From Maribacter huludaoensis (GTDB lineage: Bacteria; Bacteroidota; Bacteroidia; Flavobacteriales; Flavobacteriaceae), in NCBI RefSeq assembly GCF_029350945.1, contig NZ_JARKMS010000001.1, positions 648,313 through 712,312 on the forward strand: a stretch of DNA of 64,000 nt. Direction: 5' to 3'. The notes beneath the pieces were generated by a model, which had not been told where the DNA came from, ran no database searches, and saw nothing but the letters and a program-made list of their open reading frames with translations. Shown piece after piece: positions 52,158 through 57,943 of this stretch. How positions within the stretch are numbered: the stretch's first letter is position 1; each line of letters begins with the position of its first letter. A program made the translations under genes and the position numbers.

Positions 52158-52844
52158 ATGGATAGGCTATTGCAAGGAGTTCAAATAAGAATCAATGAGA
52201 AGCTATATGTAAAAGACCCTGAGTCTTCGGGTCTTGGTAAAAAAATTATTGAATTTAGTATTCAATTGATCAATGATATAGGCTTTGAAAGTTTTACCTT
52301 TAAGAAGTTGGGTGTTCAAATAGGATCAAATGAAAGCTCCATTTATCGGTATTTTGAAAATAAGCACAAATTACTATTGTATTTAACCTCTTGGTATTGG
52401 GGTTGGATGGAGTATCAATTGGTCTTTGCTACCAATAGTATTAAAAATCCTAAGGAAAAGTTGCTAAAGGCTATATTCATAATGACCAAAACAACTAAAG
52501 AAGATTCGGATTTTTCTCATATCAATGAAATTTTATTGAACAATATTGTTATAAACGAATATTCAAAATCTTACCTGACAAAGGAAGTAGATGCAGAGAA
52601 CAAAGAAGGGTTCTATGCAATTTATAAAAGATTGGTGAGTAGATTGGCAGAAATGATAATTGAGGTAGATGCTTCCTATGAGTACCCTACTAGTTTGGCA
52701 AGTACCATTTTAGAAAACGGTCTACATCAACATTTTTTAAAAGAGCATTTTCCGTCGTTGACAGATTGCACCAACAAAATAACACCTACACAATATTTGA
52801 CACACCTTGTGTTCAACACCCTAAACAGCACTACAGATGAATAA
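52158..52844 (+). CDS. TetR family transcriptional regulator
   Basis: A 228-residue regulator. Residues ~25-75 are the TetR helix-turn-helix (IIEFSIQLINDIGFESFTFKKLG, cited here in part: GFESFTFKKLG, then IGSNESSIYRYFENKHKLL). The C-terminal part is an all-helical ligand-binding domain. It is first in an operon with ABC, HlyD and TolC genes (8-bp overlap with the ABC gene) and has a palindromic operator candidate in its promoter, so it probably represses its own export operon until an inducer binds. Confidence 0.88.
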   Translation: MDRLLQGVQIRINEKLYVKDPESSGLGKKIIEFSIQLINDIGFESFTFKKLGVQIGSNESSIYRYFENKHKLLLYLTSWYWGWMEYQLVFATNSIKNPKEKLLKAIFIMTKTTKEDSDFSHINEILLNNIVINEYSKSYLTKEVDAENKEGFYAIYKRLVSRLAEMIIEVDASYEYPTSLASTILENGLHQHFLKEHFPSLTDCTNKITPTQYLTHLVFNTLNSTTDE

Positions 52845-54519
52845 AAATATATTGACCGCCTGGCAACGTTTTCTGGGTCTTTTAAAATTAGACAAGAAAG
52901 ACGTATTTCAGGTATTCTACTACGCAATTTTTGCCGGTGTAGTAAACCTTTCTTTGCCTTTGGGGATACAGGCCATTATCAATTTAATGCAGGGCGCACA
53001 GATAAGTACATCATGGATCGTTTTGGTCATTGGTGTTACTATTGGTGTAGCTTTTGTAGGTATTCTGCAATTAATGCAAATACGTATAATTGAAAATGTG
53101 CAGCAAAAGATTTTTACCCGGGCCTCATTTGAATTTGCGTATCGTTTTCCTAAAATCAAAATGAGTGAGTTGTACAACTATTATCCACCGGAATTGGCAA
53201 ACCGGTTTTTTGACACCCTTACCATCCAAAAATCATTGTCAAAAGTTTTAATAGATTTTCCCGCCGCTTTGTTACAGATCGTTTTTGGTTTGTTACTACT
53301 GTCGTTCTACCATCCGTTTTTTATTGTCTATGGACTTTTGTTGTTGCTGTTGATTTATGTAGTGTTCAAATTCACGGCGCAACGTGGTTTGGATACCAGT
53401 TTAGATGAGTCTAAGAGCAAATACAAAGTAGCGCATTGGCTGCAGGAAATAGCCCGTTCTATTGTCAGTTTTAAATTATCGGGCAAAACTTCCCATGCGT
53501 TGGATAAGAACGATACATTGGTAGTTGAATATTTGAATGCTAGGGAAAGTCACTTTAGGGTAATTGTTCTACAGTTTATTCAAATGATCGGTTTTAAGGT
53601 ATTGGTAACGGCAGGGCTTCTGCTTATTGGTGGGTTGCTGGTCTTAAATCAAGAAATGAATATAGGTCAGTTTGTTGCTGCGGAGATTATTATTCTTTTG
53701 GTCATCGGTTCTGTAGAGAAATTGATCCTTGGTTTAGAAACTTTCTACGATCTTTTAACTTCATTGGAGAAGATGGGTCAAGTAGTAGATAAAGAGCTTG
53801 AAATCCAAGAAGGGGAAAAACCATTTTTAGAGAATCAGTCGTTTACGGTAGAGTTGAGCAATATCTCTTATAGTGTGCCAGATCCCAAAAGAGAGATCAT
53901 TACCAACTTAAGTTTAACCATTTCACCTACGTGTACCATATTGTTAAGAGGAAATAGTGGCTCTGGTAAAAATACCTTATTGCGTTTGATCGCAGGTATT
54001 ATTGAGCCAGATAGCGGCGGGGTATTTGTAAATGGTGTTTCTTTAAAAGGAATGAACTTAAATTATTATCGTTCTCACCTTGGTCAATCCTTACCGGAAG
54101 AATCCCCTTTTGAAGGGACTATTTTACACAACATTACATTTGGTGATAAGGACACGACCAACGAGCAAGTATATTGGGCTTTGGATAAAGTAGGGCTTAC
54201 GGATTTTGTAAAAAAACAGCCCGAAGGACTTAATACCGTTCTTTATCCAGAAGGGAAACAAATACCTTATACGGTTTCAAAAAAGATCGTTCTGGCCAGA
54301 AGTATTGTTCGCAAACCAAAACTCCTAATTTTAAAAGATCCGTTAGATCAATTTAATAGTGAAGAAGCAGATAGGATTCTAAGCTTTTTAAGTGACCCTT
54401 CTAACGGTTGGGCATTACTTGTGGTAAGTGAAAATGATAAATGGATAAAAAAATGTTCTCGAATTATTACGATGGACAAAGGACAGATTATTAACGAAAT
54501 CTCAGGAAAAGATGCTTAA
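52837..54519 (+). CDS. ABC transporter half-molecule with a degenerate nucleotide-binding domain
   Basis: A 560-residue protein with five or six membrane helices (~25-300) like the type I secretion/lipid-flippase ABC family, but no N-terminal C39 peptidase. In the ATPase domain Walker A is G372-NSGSGK-N379, with Asn where a Ser/Thr should hold Mg. The signature region (476-480) is IPYTV instead of LSGGQ. Walker B reads LLILKD: K500 replaces the Asp and D501 the catalytic Glu. The H-loop (VVSEN) has no His. ATP hydrolysis by the known mechanism is unlikely. The frame is clean and coupled to its neighbours, so it is not a decayed gene. Confidence 0.86.
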   Translation: MNKNILTAWQRFLGLLKLDKKDVFQVFYYAIFAGVVNLSLPLGIQAIINLMQGAQISTSWIVLVIGVTIGVAFVGILQLMQIRIIENVQQKIFTRASFEFAYRFPKIKMSELYNYYPPELANRFFDTLTIQKSLSKVLIDFPAALLQIVFGLLLLSFYHPFFIVYGLLLLLLIYVVFKFTAQRGLDTSLDESKSKYKVAHWLQEIARSIVSFKLSGKTSHALDKNDTLVVEYLNARESHFRVIVLQFIQMIGFKVLVTAGLLLIGGLLVLNQEMNIGQFVAAEIIILLVIGSVEKLILGLETFYDLLTSLEKMGQVVDKELEIQEGEKPFLENQSFTVELSNISYSVPDPKREIITNLSLTISPTCTILLRGNSGSGKNTLLRLIAGIIEPDSGGVFVNGVSLKGMNLNYYRSHLGQSLPEESPFEGTILHNITFGDKDTTNEQVYWALDKVGLTDFVKKQPEGLNTVLYPEGKQIPYTVSKKIVLARSIVRKPKLLILKDPLDQFNSEEADRILSFLSDPSNGWALLVVSENDKWIKKCSRIITMDKGQIINEISGKDA

Positions 54520-55864
54520 TATATCTCATAAAACATTGAACAAAAAAGTGTCTATTGAACGATTTAAATCTGTTCAAAAAGTAAATCATAAAAGGCATTA
54601 CAAGCATTTTAATAGATTCTTGTTCGCATTTGCCGTGGTAGGGGTAATCGTATTGTTTTTGCCATGGACCCAGACCATAAACGCAAGAGGGTATTTAACT
54701 ACTCTTACACCGGGCCAAAGACCACAAACAATTCAATCTCAAATACCGGGCAGAATTGAGAAATGGTATGTGCAAGAAGGTGATTATGTAAAAAAAGGAG
54801 ACACTATACTTTTTATATCTGAGATTAAATCAGAGTATTTTGATCCTAATTTGGTAGAGAGAACAGGGCAACAATTAAAATCGAAAGCATCTTCTGTTAC
54901 ATCATATGGCGATAAGGTAAAGTCCTTGAATAATCAAGTAGCTGCGTTGATCAATGAAAGACGATTAAAATTGGAGCAGGCCAAGAATAAATTGATGCAG
55001 GCCAAATTGAAAGCGCAAAGTGATAGTATAGATTTTGAAGCTGCAAAGACCAACATACAGATTGCCGAGCGTCAATATGAACGTACGGCACAATTACAGA
55101 GCGAAGGTTTAAAGGCTGTTACAGATGTTGAGGCCAAGCGTTTAAAGCTACAGGAAACCCAGGCAAAGTTACTTTCTCAAGAAAATAAGTTACTGGCGGC
55201 CAAGAATGAGATCATCAATGCAGAGGTTGAGATCGGTAGGGTGCAGGCATCGTATACCGATAAGATTTCAAAAGCGCAGAGCGATAAGTTCACTGCAATG
55301 TCTAATCAGTTCGATTCGGAAGCTCAGGTAAGTAAGCTTGAAAACGATTATACCAATTATCAAATGCGAAACCAGCTTCGTTATGTTAGGGCGCCACAAA
55401 ACGGTTATATCAACAAAGTGCTTACCGCCGGTATAGGAGAGACTTTTAAGGAAGGTACGCCATTGGTGGGTATTATGCCGGCAGATTATGATATGGCGGT
55501 AGAAACTTTCGTAGAACCAATAGACTTACCGCTGATCCATTTAGGGGAAAGTGTTAGAATTCAATTTGATGGCTGGCCTGCCATAGTATTCAGTGGATGG
55601 CCTAATGCATCATACGGAACGTATGCAGGTAAGGTCGTGGCAATTGAAACTTTTATAAACCCTAATGGAAAGTACAGGGTACTGCTTTCTCCAGATAAGG
55701 ACGATCAGGCGTGGCCGGAAGCGCTTCGCGTAGGTTCTGGGGCAAATACCATTGCCCTGTTGGAAGATGTTCCTATTTGGTATGAACTTTGGCGTCAGTT
55801 GAACGGTTTTCCTGCCAATTATTATCAGCCGGAAGGGGCTCAAGATAAACCTGTAAAAAAATAA
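54512..55864 (+). CDS. HlyD-family membrane fusion protein
   Basis: A 450-residue periplasmic adaptor anchored by one N-terminal helix (~32-52). Residues ~60-110 begin the biotinyl/lipoyl half (QSQIPGRIEKWYVQEGDYVKKGD, cited in part), a long coiled coil spans ~120-285, the second lipoyl half and a beta-barrel follow (~290-430, with VRAPQNGYINKV). It would link the ABC half-transporter in the inner membrane to the TolC-like channel; it overlaps the ABC gene by 8 bp and the TolC gene starts 2 bp after it. Confidence 0.92.
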   Translation: MLNISHKTLNKKVSIERFKSVQKVNHKRHYKHFNRFLFAFAVVGVIVLFLPWTQTINARGYLTTLTPGQRPQTIQSQIPGRIEKWYVQEGDYVKKGDTILFISEIKSEYFDPNLVERTGQQLKSKASSVTSYGDKVKSLNNQVAALINERRLKLEQAKNKLMQAKLKAQSDSIDFEAAKTNIQIAERQYERTAQLQSEGLKAVTDVEAKRLKLQETQAKLLSQENKLLAAKNEIINAEVEIGRVQASYTDKISKAQSDKFTAMSNQFDSEAQVSKLENDYTNYQMRNQLRYVRAPQNGYINKVLTAGIGETFKEGTPLVGIMPADYDMAVETFVEPIDLPLIHLGESVRIQFDGWPAIVFSGWPNASYGTYAGKVVAIETFINPNGKYRVLLSPDKDDQAWPEALRVGSGANTIALLEDVPIWYELWRQLNGFPANYYQPEGAQDKPVKK

Positions 55865-55866
55865 GG

Positions 55867-57270
55867 ATGAACAGAATTATTATCTTTTTCTATCTATTAT
55901 TTGGGTTGTTTGTGAACGCCCAGACCGTAGATTCTGTGCAGCTTAATTTTAGGGAGTATTTGGGGTACGTAAAAAAGTACCACCCTGTAGCCAAACAAGC
56001 AGAAATGGTAATGAGCGTAGGTCAGGCAAATCTAATGAAGGCGCGTGGCGGTTTCGATCCCAAAATAACCTTGGATTATTCTACAAAAGAGTTTAAAGGG
56101 TCAGAGTATTATGATTTATTGAATTCTACCTTTAAAGTACCAACATGGTACGGAATTGAGTTAAAGGGTGAATTTGAGCAATATTCTGGAGAATATTTGA
56201 ATGCAGAAAGAAATGTACCCGATGACGGATTATATAGTGCAGGGGTGGCCCTTTCATTAGGTCGTGGATCATGGATCAATGAGCGTATGGCCACGGTTAA
56301 AAAAGCAAAGTTTTTTAGGGAGCAGTCCAAAGCGGATAGGGATTTGTTGGTCAACCAAATATTGTTCGATGCCTCATTGGCGTATTTCAATTGGTTGCAA
56401 GCTTATAGAAATAGTTTGCTCTTCAATGATTTTTTGTTGAATGCCAAGGTGCGGTTAAAAGGGGTCAACCGTAGTGCGCAATCAGGGGAAATTGCCGCTA
56501 TAGATACGGTTGAGGCAAAAATTGCGGTTCAAAACAGAGCATTGGAAAGAGAGCAGGCAAACGTAACCCTACGTAATGCAAGGTTAGAGCTTTCCAACTA
56601 TTTGTGGATGGGCGATAATATACCTATGGAGTTGCAGGAAGGGGTCGTGCCAGATACATCCTTGGATACTGAAATAGACCAAGCTTTGGAAATTTTAGGA
56701 AAGCCTTTGGATAGTTTTGTGTTAGAGAACCATCCAAAGTTAAGGTCCTTAAGTTATAAAATTGATGGCCTGGTCGTAGACAAGCGTTTAAAAACGAATA
56801 AGCTTTTGCCTAGAATTGACGTAGAGTATAAGTTCATTACGGATGAACCTGAATATCTAAATTCTTTTGAAACACAGAACTACAAAGCAGGTCTAAATTT
56901 TGAATTGCCCTTGTTTCTTAGAAAAGAACGTGGAGATTTGAAATTGGCAAAACTAAAATTAAGGGACGCACAGTTTGAGCTTGACAATGCCGAAGTGCAG
57001 ATTCAGAATAAAATAACGGCCATTTATAATGAGTTGGATTCTTTTGAAAATCAGAATGTGCTTATAGATGAAATAGTATCTAGCTATGCGGCATTATTGG
57101 CGGCAGAAGAACGAAAATTCAGTTTTGGAGAAAGTTCCCTGTTCTTGATAAACTCTAGGGAGAGTAAGTTGATAGACGCCGTTCTAAAACAAAATCAGGT
57201 AGAGAACAAATATTTTACGGCAAAGGCGAAGCTATTCAATAGTCTTGCTGTAAATCCTGAGAATTTGTAA
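55867..57270 (+). CDS. TolC-family outer-membrane channel
   Basis: A 467-residue exported protein with signal peptide (~18 residues ending FVNA) and two OEP repeats rich in coiled coil, e.g. QAEMVMSVGQANLMKARGGFDPK early, LSLGRGSW, and AEERKFSFGESSLFLINSRE late, the latter a conserved TolC turn motif. It completes a type I-like trans-envelope export line with the ABC and HlyD genes. Confidence 0.91.
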   Translation: MNRIIIFFYLLFGLFVNAQTVDSVQLNFREYLGYVKKYHPVAKQAEMVMSVGQANLMKARGGFDPKITLDYSTKEFKGSEYYDLLNSTFKVPTWYGIELKGEFEQYSGEYLNAERNVPDDGLYSAGVALSLGRGSWINERMATVKKAKFFREQSKADRDLLVNQILFDASLAYFNWLQAYRNSLLFNDFLLNAKVRLKGVNRSAQSGEIAAIDTVEAKIAVQNRALEREQANVTLRNARLELSNYLWMGDNIPMELQEGVVPDTSLDTEIDQALEILGKPLDSFVLENHPKLRSLSYKIDGLVVDKRLKTNKLLPRIDVEYKFITDEPEYLNSFETQNYKAGLNFELPLFLRKERGDLKLAKLKLRDAQFELDNAEVQIQNKITAIYNELDSFENQNVLIDEIVSSYAALLAAEERKFSFGESSLFLINSRESKLIDAVLKQNQVENKYFTAKAKLFNSLAVNPENL

Positions 57271-57328: not shown

Positions 57329-57943
57329 ATGGAATTAGTTATAGAGGATTTAATAAAAAAGGGATTGGAAACCGGTTTTAGCTATGCGGAATATAGGGCC
57401 CTTGTAGCGGATTTAGCTGAGAAAGGAACGTCTACCGGACCTGAGCAAACTGAGGCACTTACACAATACACGCAGTTAAATAACAGCCGTATGCGTAGAT
57501 GGGACAAAACTTTGAAATTTAGTGATGAGGCGGTTGCCAAAATTAAATCTGTTGATCAAAAAATTTCATGGTTGGTACTGTCCGAAAGTTGGTGTGGCGA
57601 TGCTTCACCTGCATTGCCGGTAATGAATAAGATTACAGAAATTAATCCCAATATAACTTTATCTATCATTCTTCGAGATGAAAATTTAGATCTCATGGAT
57701 CAGTTTTTAACTAACGGAGGTAGATCTATTCCTAAGTTGATTGCTTTTAAGGAAGAGAAAGGTAGTTTAGTTTCCACATGGGGTCCACGATCGGCAAAAG
57801 CTACGAGATTAGTAGAAGATTATAAGGCGGAACATGGTAAATTAACACCAGAGTTCAAACAAGAACTTCAATTGTTTTATAATAAGGACAAAGGGCAAAG
57901 TATTTTAGAAGACCTGTTGTTGTCGTTGCAAAATCAAGAATAG
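57329..57943 (+). CDS. Thioredoxin-family protein with a single active-site cysteine
   Basis: A 204-residue cytosolic protein. The thioredoxin-like region (~75-150) has SESWCGDASPALPVM with Cys followed by Gly-Asp, not CxxC, so it is a monothiol type. A preceding helical segment (residues 1-70) and the PKLIAF cis-Pro loop fit the family. It is 58 bp after the TolC gene and on the same strand; a role in the export operon is not evident. Confidence 0.83.
   Translation: MELVIEDLIKKGLETGFSYAEYRALVADLAEKGTSTGPEQTEALTQYTQLNNSRMRRWDKTLKFSDEAVAKIKSVDQKISWLVLSESWCGDASPALPVMNKITEINPNITLSIILRDENLDLMDQFLTNGGRSIPKLIAFKEEKGSLVSTWGPRSAKATRLVEDYKAEHGKLTPEFKQELQLFYNKDKGQSILEDLLLSLQNQE

Follow-up and report, generated by a model that had tools for sequence, protein, structure and literature searches.

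The 64,000-nucleotide stretch of Maribacter huludaoensis DNA analysed here (the window) contains an operon in which a gene for an ATP-binding cassette (ABC) half-transporter stands between a TetR-family regulator gene and genes for an HlyD-type adaptor and a TolC-type outer-membrane factor. The nucleotide-binding domain (NBD) of this half-transporter has no catalytic residues. Judging from the sequences, a large clade of relatives has lost the same residues, and one branch of that clade has no NBD: its transmembrane domain (TMD) gene is joined straight to the HlyD gene, with no intervening NBD gene. This monophyletic NBD-less branch appears to be new here. Because the ATPase seems long inactive and, in one branch, deleted while the rest of the pump is retained, the comparison points to an energy source other than ATP for these pumps. 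We consider it fairly probable that the system is a TolC-dependent tripartite exporter with an ABC-derived inner-membrane subunit that hydrolyses no ATP and a TMD that is driven by ions.

The genome carrying the window is 4.24 Mb in size, and its best named protein matches are from Maribacter. Along the operon Pfam finds TetR_N, ABC_membrane plus ABC_tran, HlyD and OEP. The ABC open reading frame (ORF; 52837-54519) overlaps the TetR gene by 8 bp and the HlyD gene by another 8 bp, and the TolC gene begins 2 bp past the HlyD gene. The ORF coordinates and the Pfam matches thus agree with the first-pass annotation, which had described an intact gene, coupled over 8 bp on both sides, in a complete TetR-ABC-HlyD-TolC line. 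On the NCBI type I secretion model the ABC protein scores 182 of 693 bits, far under the cut-off. The features, all on the + strand, are as follows.

52158..52844, +, TetR-family regulator, the first gene of the operon (PF00440, 30.6 bits)
52837..54519, +, ABC half-transporter of 560 aa, NBD without catalytic residues (PF00664 and PF00005; AlphaFold2 model)
52837..53826, +, TMD, residues 1-330, the portion retained by the NBD-less branch (from the model)
53461..53478, +, coupling helix 2, residues 209-214 (from the model)
53662..53787, +, transmembrane helix 6 (TM6), residues 276-317, with E283 (53683-53685) and E294-K295 (53716-53721)
53848..54504, +, degenerate NBD, residues 338-556
53950..53973, +, P-loop GNSGSGKN, residues 372-379, with N379 where Ser/Thr is expected
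54262..54276, +, IPYTV (476-480) at the site of the LSGGQ signature
54334..54339, +, K500-D501 at the sites of the Walker B Asp and the catalytic Glu
54430..54432, +, E532 at the site of the H-loop His
54512..55864, +, HlyD-type periplasmic adaptor (PF13437, PF13533; TIGR01843 100 bits, under the cut-off of 208.65)
55867..57270, +, TolC-type outer-membrane factor (PF02321, 122 bits)

All substitutions named in the first-pass annotation (N379, IPYTV at 476-480, K500, D501 and E532) are indeed at the positions it gave. Its wider statement that nearly all ATPase motifs had been lost is correct for the catalytic residues and too sweeping for the others, as all 121 sequences compared (the best 120 homologs, 81–97% identical, and the window protein) retain the Lys of the P-loop and Y345, the Tyr of the A-loop. 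Throughout these 121 sequences position 500 is K or R and positions 476-477 are IP; position 501 is D in 120 of them, and position 532 is His in none and E in 98. K500-D501 is found in 29/29 sequences of the genus set. On these counts N379 is a local feature, present in 88 of the 121 close homologs, 19 of the 29 genus sequences and 3 of the 97 members of the wider fused set described below. Conservation of the substitutions in homologs, the check proposed for the first-pass claim, was confirmed: the losses are common to the clade, and the ratio of non-synonymous to synonymous substitution rates (dN/dS) is far below 1 in Maribacter.

Of the 36 genus genomes, 34 contained a match to the window protein at E <= 1e-60. 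At E <= 1e-40 a match was present in 85 of the 149 genomes that represented the family and in 76 of the 296 that made up the phylum sample. Reading the proteins from DNA gave a set of 176, comprising 97 fused proteins with a degenerate NBD, 15 with the Walker B Asp-Glu pair and 64 without an NBD. Duplicate loci (L001, L068, L125-L128, L130, L133-L135, L137, L141 and L187) and partial loci (L108 and L160) were excluded, and only L225, L230 and L234 were included from the genus loci L207-L234. Among the 97 fused degenerate proteins (lowest identity to the window protein 37%, for the 87 compared) the Walker B Asp is present in two, the catalytic Glu in 11, the second Gly of the signature in one and a His in the H-loop region in five; Asp, Glu and His never occur together. 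At the Walker B pair, ED (42) and KD (21) occur most often. The P-loop pattern GxxxxGK[ST] is kept in 86 and an A-loop Tyr or Phe in 90; the P-loop Lys or more is lost in six. Compared with this set, the window protein too has no NBD with Walker A/B, LSGGQ and H-loop motifs fit for hydrolysis. Catalytic residues are thus lost while P-loop and A-loop are kept, so that the fused NBD looks like a nucleotide-binding platform incapable of hydrolysis. Four fused members (L097, L119, L120 and L121) are without even a P-loop, and members of ∼690–830 aa (L086-L088, L091, L093, L096, L098-L101, L103-L107, L109 and L110) carry an N-terminal extension, for which Pfam gave no match in the four scanned (L086, L087, L101 and L107).

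The first-pass annotation held that homologs with normal motifs would make the window gene a decayed allele. Such homologs exist in part, as 15 distant members (28–37% identical, all from the same phylum but from another class) with Asp and Glu in all 15 and the H-loop His in 13; the Q-loop Gln is missing from them and a signature could be recognized by pattern in four. The degenerate state, however, is clade-wide and not that of one decayed copy. In the 25 fused loci from named genomes the motif columns were readable in 11, none of which had the Asp-Glu pair, and misaligned in the other 14. One genome of the genus (G787, L347:2680-4561) has its ABC gene in two pieces with overlapping query ranges, next to HlyD and TolC matches of nearly full length, which is the kind of observation that decay would produce. 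Nevertheless, the match in 34 of 36 genus genomes, the purifying selection and the same losses throughout the clade leave a decayed allele or a sequencing artefact with a negligible probability, and we rejected both; errors in the motifs, in particular, are excluded by the same losses in many relatives.

The NBD-less branch came to light in the phylum search, where four matches were open frames of just 334–349 aa, a minority of the 76 genomes with a match. Around three of these four, searches of three families found TMD-only forms in 23/151, 33/101 and 23/100 genomes (counted from the matches listed). In all 63 TMD-only loci that were fetched, the protein ends past the TM6 linker and an HlyD frame follows at −52 to +119 nt; 39 of the 63 have exactly the 8-bp overlap of the window type between TMD and HlyD genes. 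A scan of named genomes, limited to the best 80 loci, gave 55 TMD-only loci (330–369 aa) and the 25 fused ones mentioned above. The TMD-only loci belong to Pedobacter, Mucilaginibacter, Sphingobacterium, Nubsella, Chitinophaga, Paraflavitalea, Dyadobacter, Hymenobacter, Spirosoma, Larkinella, Fibrisoma and Fibrella, plus some metagenome-assembled genomes. An HlyD gene follows the TMD gene (∼334 aa) in 55/55 of them, and a TolC gene is present in 53 (once as two frames); the remaining two stretches end there. The 63-locus and 55-locus sets partly overlap. Pfam recognized ABC_membrane alone in the three TMD-only proteins scanned (3/3). Two further candidates were dropped: the match in G575 reaches the end of its contig, and in G580 what comes after the TMD is a short TolC-like stretch, which may reflect an assembly fault or a large deletion.

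On TMD trees the NBD-less proteins are monophyletic, whether in the set of 176 (64/64, support 0.999), in a tree enlarged by the 80 named loci, some of them from genomes of earlier loci (119/119, support 1.0), or in an IQ-TREE set of 65 of the 176 sequences (16/16, ultrafast bootstrap [UFBoot] 100). Degenerate and NBD-less proteins together form one clade (0.90, 0.89 and UFBoot 100) that contains none of the 15 Asp-Glu proteins, and the sister of the NBD-less clade is a degenerate fused protein of 728 aa, L086 (UFBoot 98). The N-terminal extension is present in L086 and missing in the NBD-less branch. The trees were rooted on L112/L114 by choice; with another root the Asp-Glu state must be regained. 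Given the topology under this rooting, parsimony indicates that catalysis disappeared in the clade's common ancestor and that the NBD was deleted once, later. The existence of this branch makes the case much stronger than the window alone would, and the first-pass suggestion that the complex works without ATP hydrolysis is strongly supported by the conserved loss and the NBD-less branch together.

The window protein itself is modelled by AlphaFold2 as a full exporter fold (mean predicted local distance difference test [pLDDT] 90.8, predicted TM-score [pTM] 0.82, as a monomer). The modelled TMD helices are an elbow (8-18), TM1 (20-52), TM2 (58-106), TM3 (117-158), TM4 (161-207), TM5 (220-270) and TM6 (276-317), with coupling helices at residues 109-112 and 209-214; Foldseek likewise supports a six-helix exporter TMD with coupling helices. 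Its closest structures in the PDB are TmrAB, TAP, PCAT1 (TM-score 0.90) and HlyB (0.88), with chain B of TmrAB at 0.86–0.88, and its sequence profiles match PCAT1, ComA and HlyB. Given the confident fold and the substitutions, the NBD is predicted to fold, yet without catalytic residues.

Within the genus the TMD has a median dN/dS of 0.0215 and the NBD one of 0.0348, in a shallow test with usable dS in only 17 of 406 pairs; both domains are under strong purifying selection in Maribacter. Of 27 comparisons with the window protein, 26 show more divergence in the NBD than in the TMD (median NBD/TMD ratio 2.28). For a canonical exporter of the window genome the ratio was 0.88 and exceeded 1 in 10/27; each set was measured against a single reference protein, and the genomes behind the two sets differ in part. 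From this contrast (2.28 versus 0.88) the NBD is constrained, but, relative to its own TMD, less so than a working NBD.

What would drive transport is most likely an ion gradient, of protons or sodium, acting through the family-specific TM6 acids E283 and E294. This is favoured by the conservation of these acids together with the precedents of LmrA, MsbA and SbmA. E283 is present in 96/97 fused degenerate and 64/64 NBD-less proteins, and E294 in 97/97 and 62/64. Both sets show little or no variation at E86, E283, E294, K295, D305 and K312, the invariant TMD charges being E86, K132, K295 and K312; columns 86, 283 and 294 hold no acid in the four other exporters of the window genome (one of which is gapped at 86). 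As for the precedents, passages of PMC4979069 report that NBD-deleted MsbA transports with a pH gradient, and those of PMC6155054 report transport by LmrA without its NBD with an ion gradient and an essential role for E314 of TM6 in its proton-coupled transport. SbmA is described in parts of PMC13316013 as a natural proton-driven ABC-derived transporter that has lost the NBD and the coupling helices.

The preferred reading can be laid out as a mechanism. The gene product would serve a TolC-dependent tripartite exporter as its inner-membrane subunit; it would descend from a type IV (HlyB/PCAT-like) ABC exporter and have given up ATP hydrolysis. Alternating access of a TMD dimer would pass the substrate on to the conduit of HlyD and TolC, a step modelled on the NBD-stripped TMDs of MsbA and LmrA as reported, and the ion gradient (proton or sodium) would enter via E283, E294, K295 and E86. 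In the fused members the NBD would be a non-catalytic appendage, structural or nucleotide-sensing. Alternatively, the ABC protein might have ceased to transport and only scaffold HlyD and TolC, as could be read from the persistence of the operon partners after the catalytic residues had gone. Invariant TMD charges and a TMD dN/dS of ∼0.02 seem to us beyond the needs of an anchor, and we regard such a scaffold as very improbable.

Several observations weigh against an ion-driven exporter. The model of the NBD-less protein, whose mean pLDDT is only 77, retains both coupling helices (at 113-116 and 213-217), unlike SbmA-type transporters, and intracellular loop 1 (ICL1) is highly conserved, so that a docking partner may still exist. 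P-loop and A-loop are kept in ∼90% of the fused members, and nucleotide binding may therefore matter there. The acids E283 and E294 did not arise with the loss of the ATPase, since most Asp-Glu members have them (14/15 and 12/15, respectively). The TetR regulator is an inconstant partner: in 60 larger related loci, HlyD is present in 56 and TolC in 57, and TetR is beside the transporter gene in 27; it adjoins nine of the 55 named NBD-less genes, on the opposite strand each time.

The retained nucleotide-binding motifs could mean that the fused transporter is gated by nucleotide that it binds but does not hydrolyse: it would sense the level of ATP or ADP, and its TMD would act as a gated channel or facilitator. 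The counts for P-loop (86/97) and A-loop (90/97) and the low NBD dN/dS in Maribacter (∼0.035) are in keeping with such gating. What speaks against it is that the second glycine of the signature survives in only one of the 97 proteins, that six have lost the P-loop Lys or more, that the Mg-ligand Ser/Thr is gone from most genus sequences (Asn in 19/29) and that the NBD-less branch could not operate in this way. We hold gating to be unlikely.

Equally unlikely, in our estimate, is a pump that is still ATP-driven because its TMD receives an NBD in trans, from a gene elsewhere or from a second ABC half-transporter. The coupling helices still predicted in the NBD-less protein and the conserved ICL1 would fit such a partner, as would the pairing of degenerate with active sites in known exporters; passages of a review of degenerate sites (PMC7756269) deal with heterodimers. 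Moreover, two of 79 NBD-less genomes (G612 and G644) also carry a fused relative. The remaining 77 have none at E 1e-40. The operon holds no second ABC gene, and an active partner within the operon was rejected on this ground; no heterodimer partner with an active site was found there, and none of the four other half-transporters of the window genome adjoins the HlyD or TolC gene of the operon. These four, found in the search for further half-transporters that might be partners, are 22–25% identical to the window protein over the matched part and look ordinary, keeping the Walker A Ser, Walker B Asp and H-loop His, with Asp at the catalytic Glu site in L003 and LSSGQ in L005. A search for free HlyB-type NBDs (query: the NBD of an Asp-Glu-His member; E limit 1e-18) yielded none in 16 NBD-less genomes among the matches listed (E <= 1.8e-22), a negative that applies to the HlyB type and leaves ordinary free NBDs of other systems outside it; every HlyB-type NBD match listed, in these 16 and four other genomes, is in a frame of at least 553 aa. 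Thus, of the pairing with a second active ABC subunit elsewhere that the first-pass annotation had considered, the version within the operon falls, and the version in trans is weakened and disfavoured.

The TMD variability points the same way. The block containing coupling helix 2 (211-220) shows the largest rise in entropy among TMD blocks after NBD loss, 2.51 bits in the NBD-less set versus 1.98 in the fused degenerate set; the next-largest rise is in block 171-180 (2.21 versus 1.90 bits). In 28 of 34 blocks entropy is lower in the NBD-less set, as expected of a less divergent set (effective number 26.8 versus 53.6), so that only the rises are meaningful. By sequence, the TMD-only profile finds ComA best (E 1.3e-6), followed by weak matches to ABCB10 and PCAT1; by fold, the NBD-less model matches PCAT1, HlyB and TmrAB, with no SbmA chain in the best 50 Foldseek PDB matches.

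The TetR gene in the window suggests that the substrate may be a small molecule or peptide, though TetR is an inconstant neighbour. The TMD-only gene is often directly preceded by a small ORF (∼110–130 aa) that encodes a hydrophobic stretch at the N-terminus and a proline motif at the C-terminus. When the longest upstream ORF of each of the 55 named loci was considered, the C-terminus was PPP in 16 (L235-L243, L245-L247, L249, L252, L259 and L260) and EPPE in three more (L255, L258 and L263), mostly in Pedobacter and Mucilaginibacter with few others; by the same measure Hymenobacter and Spirosoma-type loci had no such ORF. Its product is possibly a secreted substrate or an accessory protein. 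Downstream of the TolC gene, on the same strand, lies a thioredoxin-fold gene (57329-57943, PF14595), apparently no regular neighbour since no frame in the related loci then compared matched it (E 1e-8). In two distant relatives, L105 and L106, another and larger ABC gene (953 and 987 aa) lies immediately upstream, an arrangement that may be akin to the two-ABC exporters of bacteriocins. Public protein names hide the transporter family: many fused proteins are annotated as 'peptidase domain-containing ABC transporter', although the window protein has no peptidase-domain match in Pfam, and some NBD-less ones as 'ABC transporter ATP-binding protein'.

The general view of tripartite ABC exporters is that ATP energises them. 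The present system resembles those of type I secretion (HlyB-HlyD-TolC, PCAT1/ComA-type) in its fold and in having HlyD and TolC in one operon, and differs from them in that its fused members have no catalytic ATPase residues and one branch has no NBD. TmrAB, which the window protein resembles in fold, and TM287/288 are heterodimers that likewise have a degenerate catalytic site; they possess an active partner, whereas none was found for the window protein. EmrAB-TolC and AcrAB-TolC combine an ion-driven inner-membrane pump with an adaptor and TolC, the inner-membrane parts belonging to the MFS and RND families. We propose them as a functional analogy in which the inner-membrane part would here be ABC-derived instead. 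SbmA-like peptide transporters (SLiPTs) have an ABC-exporter TMD without an NBD, as do the NBD-less relatives and unlike the window protein. SLiPTs are further marked by a glutamate ladder that lines the cavity, and in the present family E86, E283 and E294 are conserved and might have a comparable role. According to portions of PMC13316013, acidic residues carry the protons in SLiPTs; the same portions describe SLiPTs as importers without coupling helices and with extra TM0 helices, whereas coupling helices are kept in our models.

Full-text searches of the open-licence PMC literature listed no paper whose title or abstract opening describes a tripartite ABC exporter that is NBD-less or ATPase-dead. 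The available sections of a review of tripartite systems (PMC8277102) do not mention SbmA, 'lacking NBD' or 'ATP-independent', and their passages on degenerate sites concern heterodimers. In the sections seen of PMC7756269 the phrases 'both degenerate' and 'two degenerate' are absent, and those of a paper on HlyB chimeras (PMC11026475) contain nothing bearing on ATPase-less export.

We see about an even chance that in this clade an ABC exporter has, for a second time and independently, become an ion-driven secondary transporter, here as the motor of an HlyD-TolC pump, with all stages still living. With the same even odds, these stages would be an Asp-Glu-His ATPase, a dead NBD that binds nucleotide, an eroded P-loop and a clean deletion of the NBD. 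The MsbA and LmrA deletions, whose TMD by itself is reported to use an ion gradient for transport (LmrA requiring Glu 314 in TM6, according to the passages cited above), were made in the laboratory, whereas the NBD-less branch is natural and stands beside HlyD and TolC. If the preferred reading is true, a natural lineage first killed and then deleted its ATPase while keeping the TMD, the adaptor and the outer-membrane channel. The TMD would then be a transporter in its own right, the clade would provide a comparative series for the change from primary to secondary transporter, and the NBD-less branch would be a natural counterpart bearing on the reports of NBD-free transport by MsbA and LmrA.

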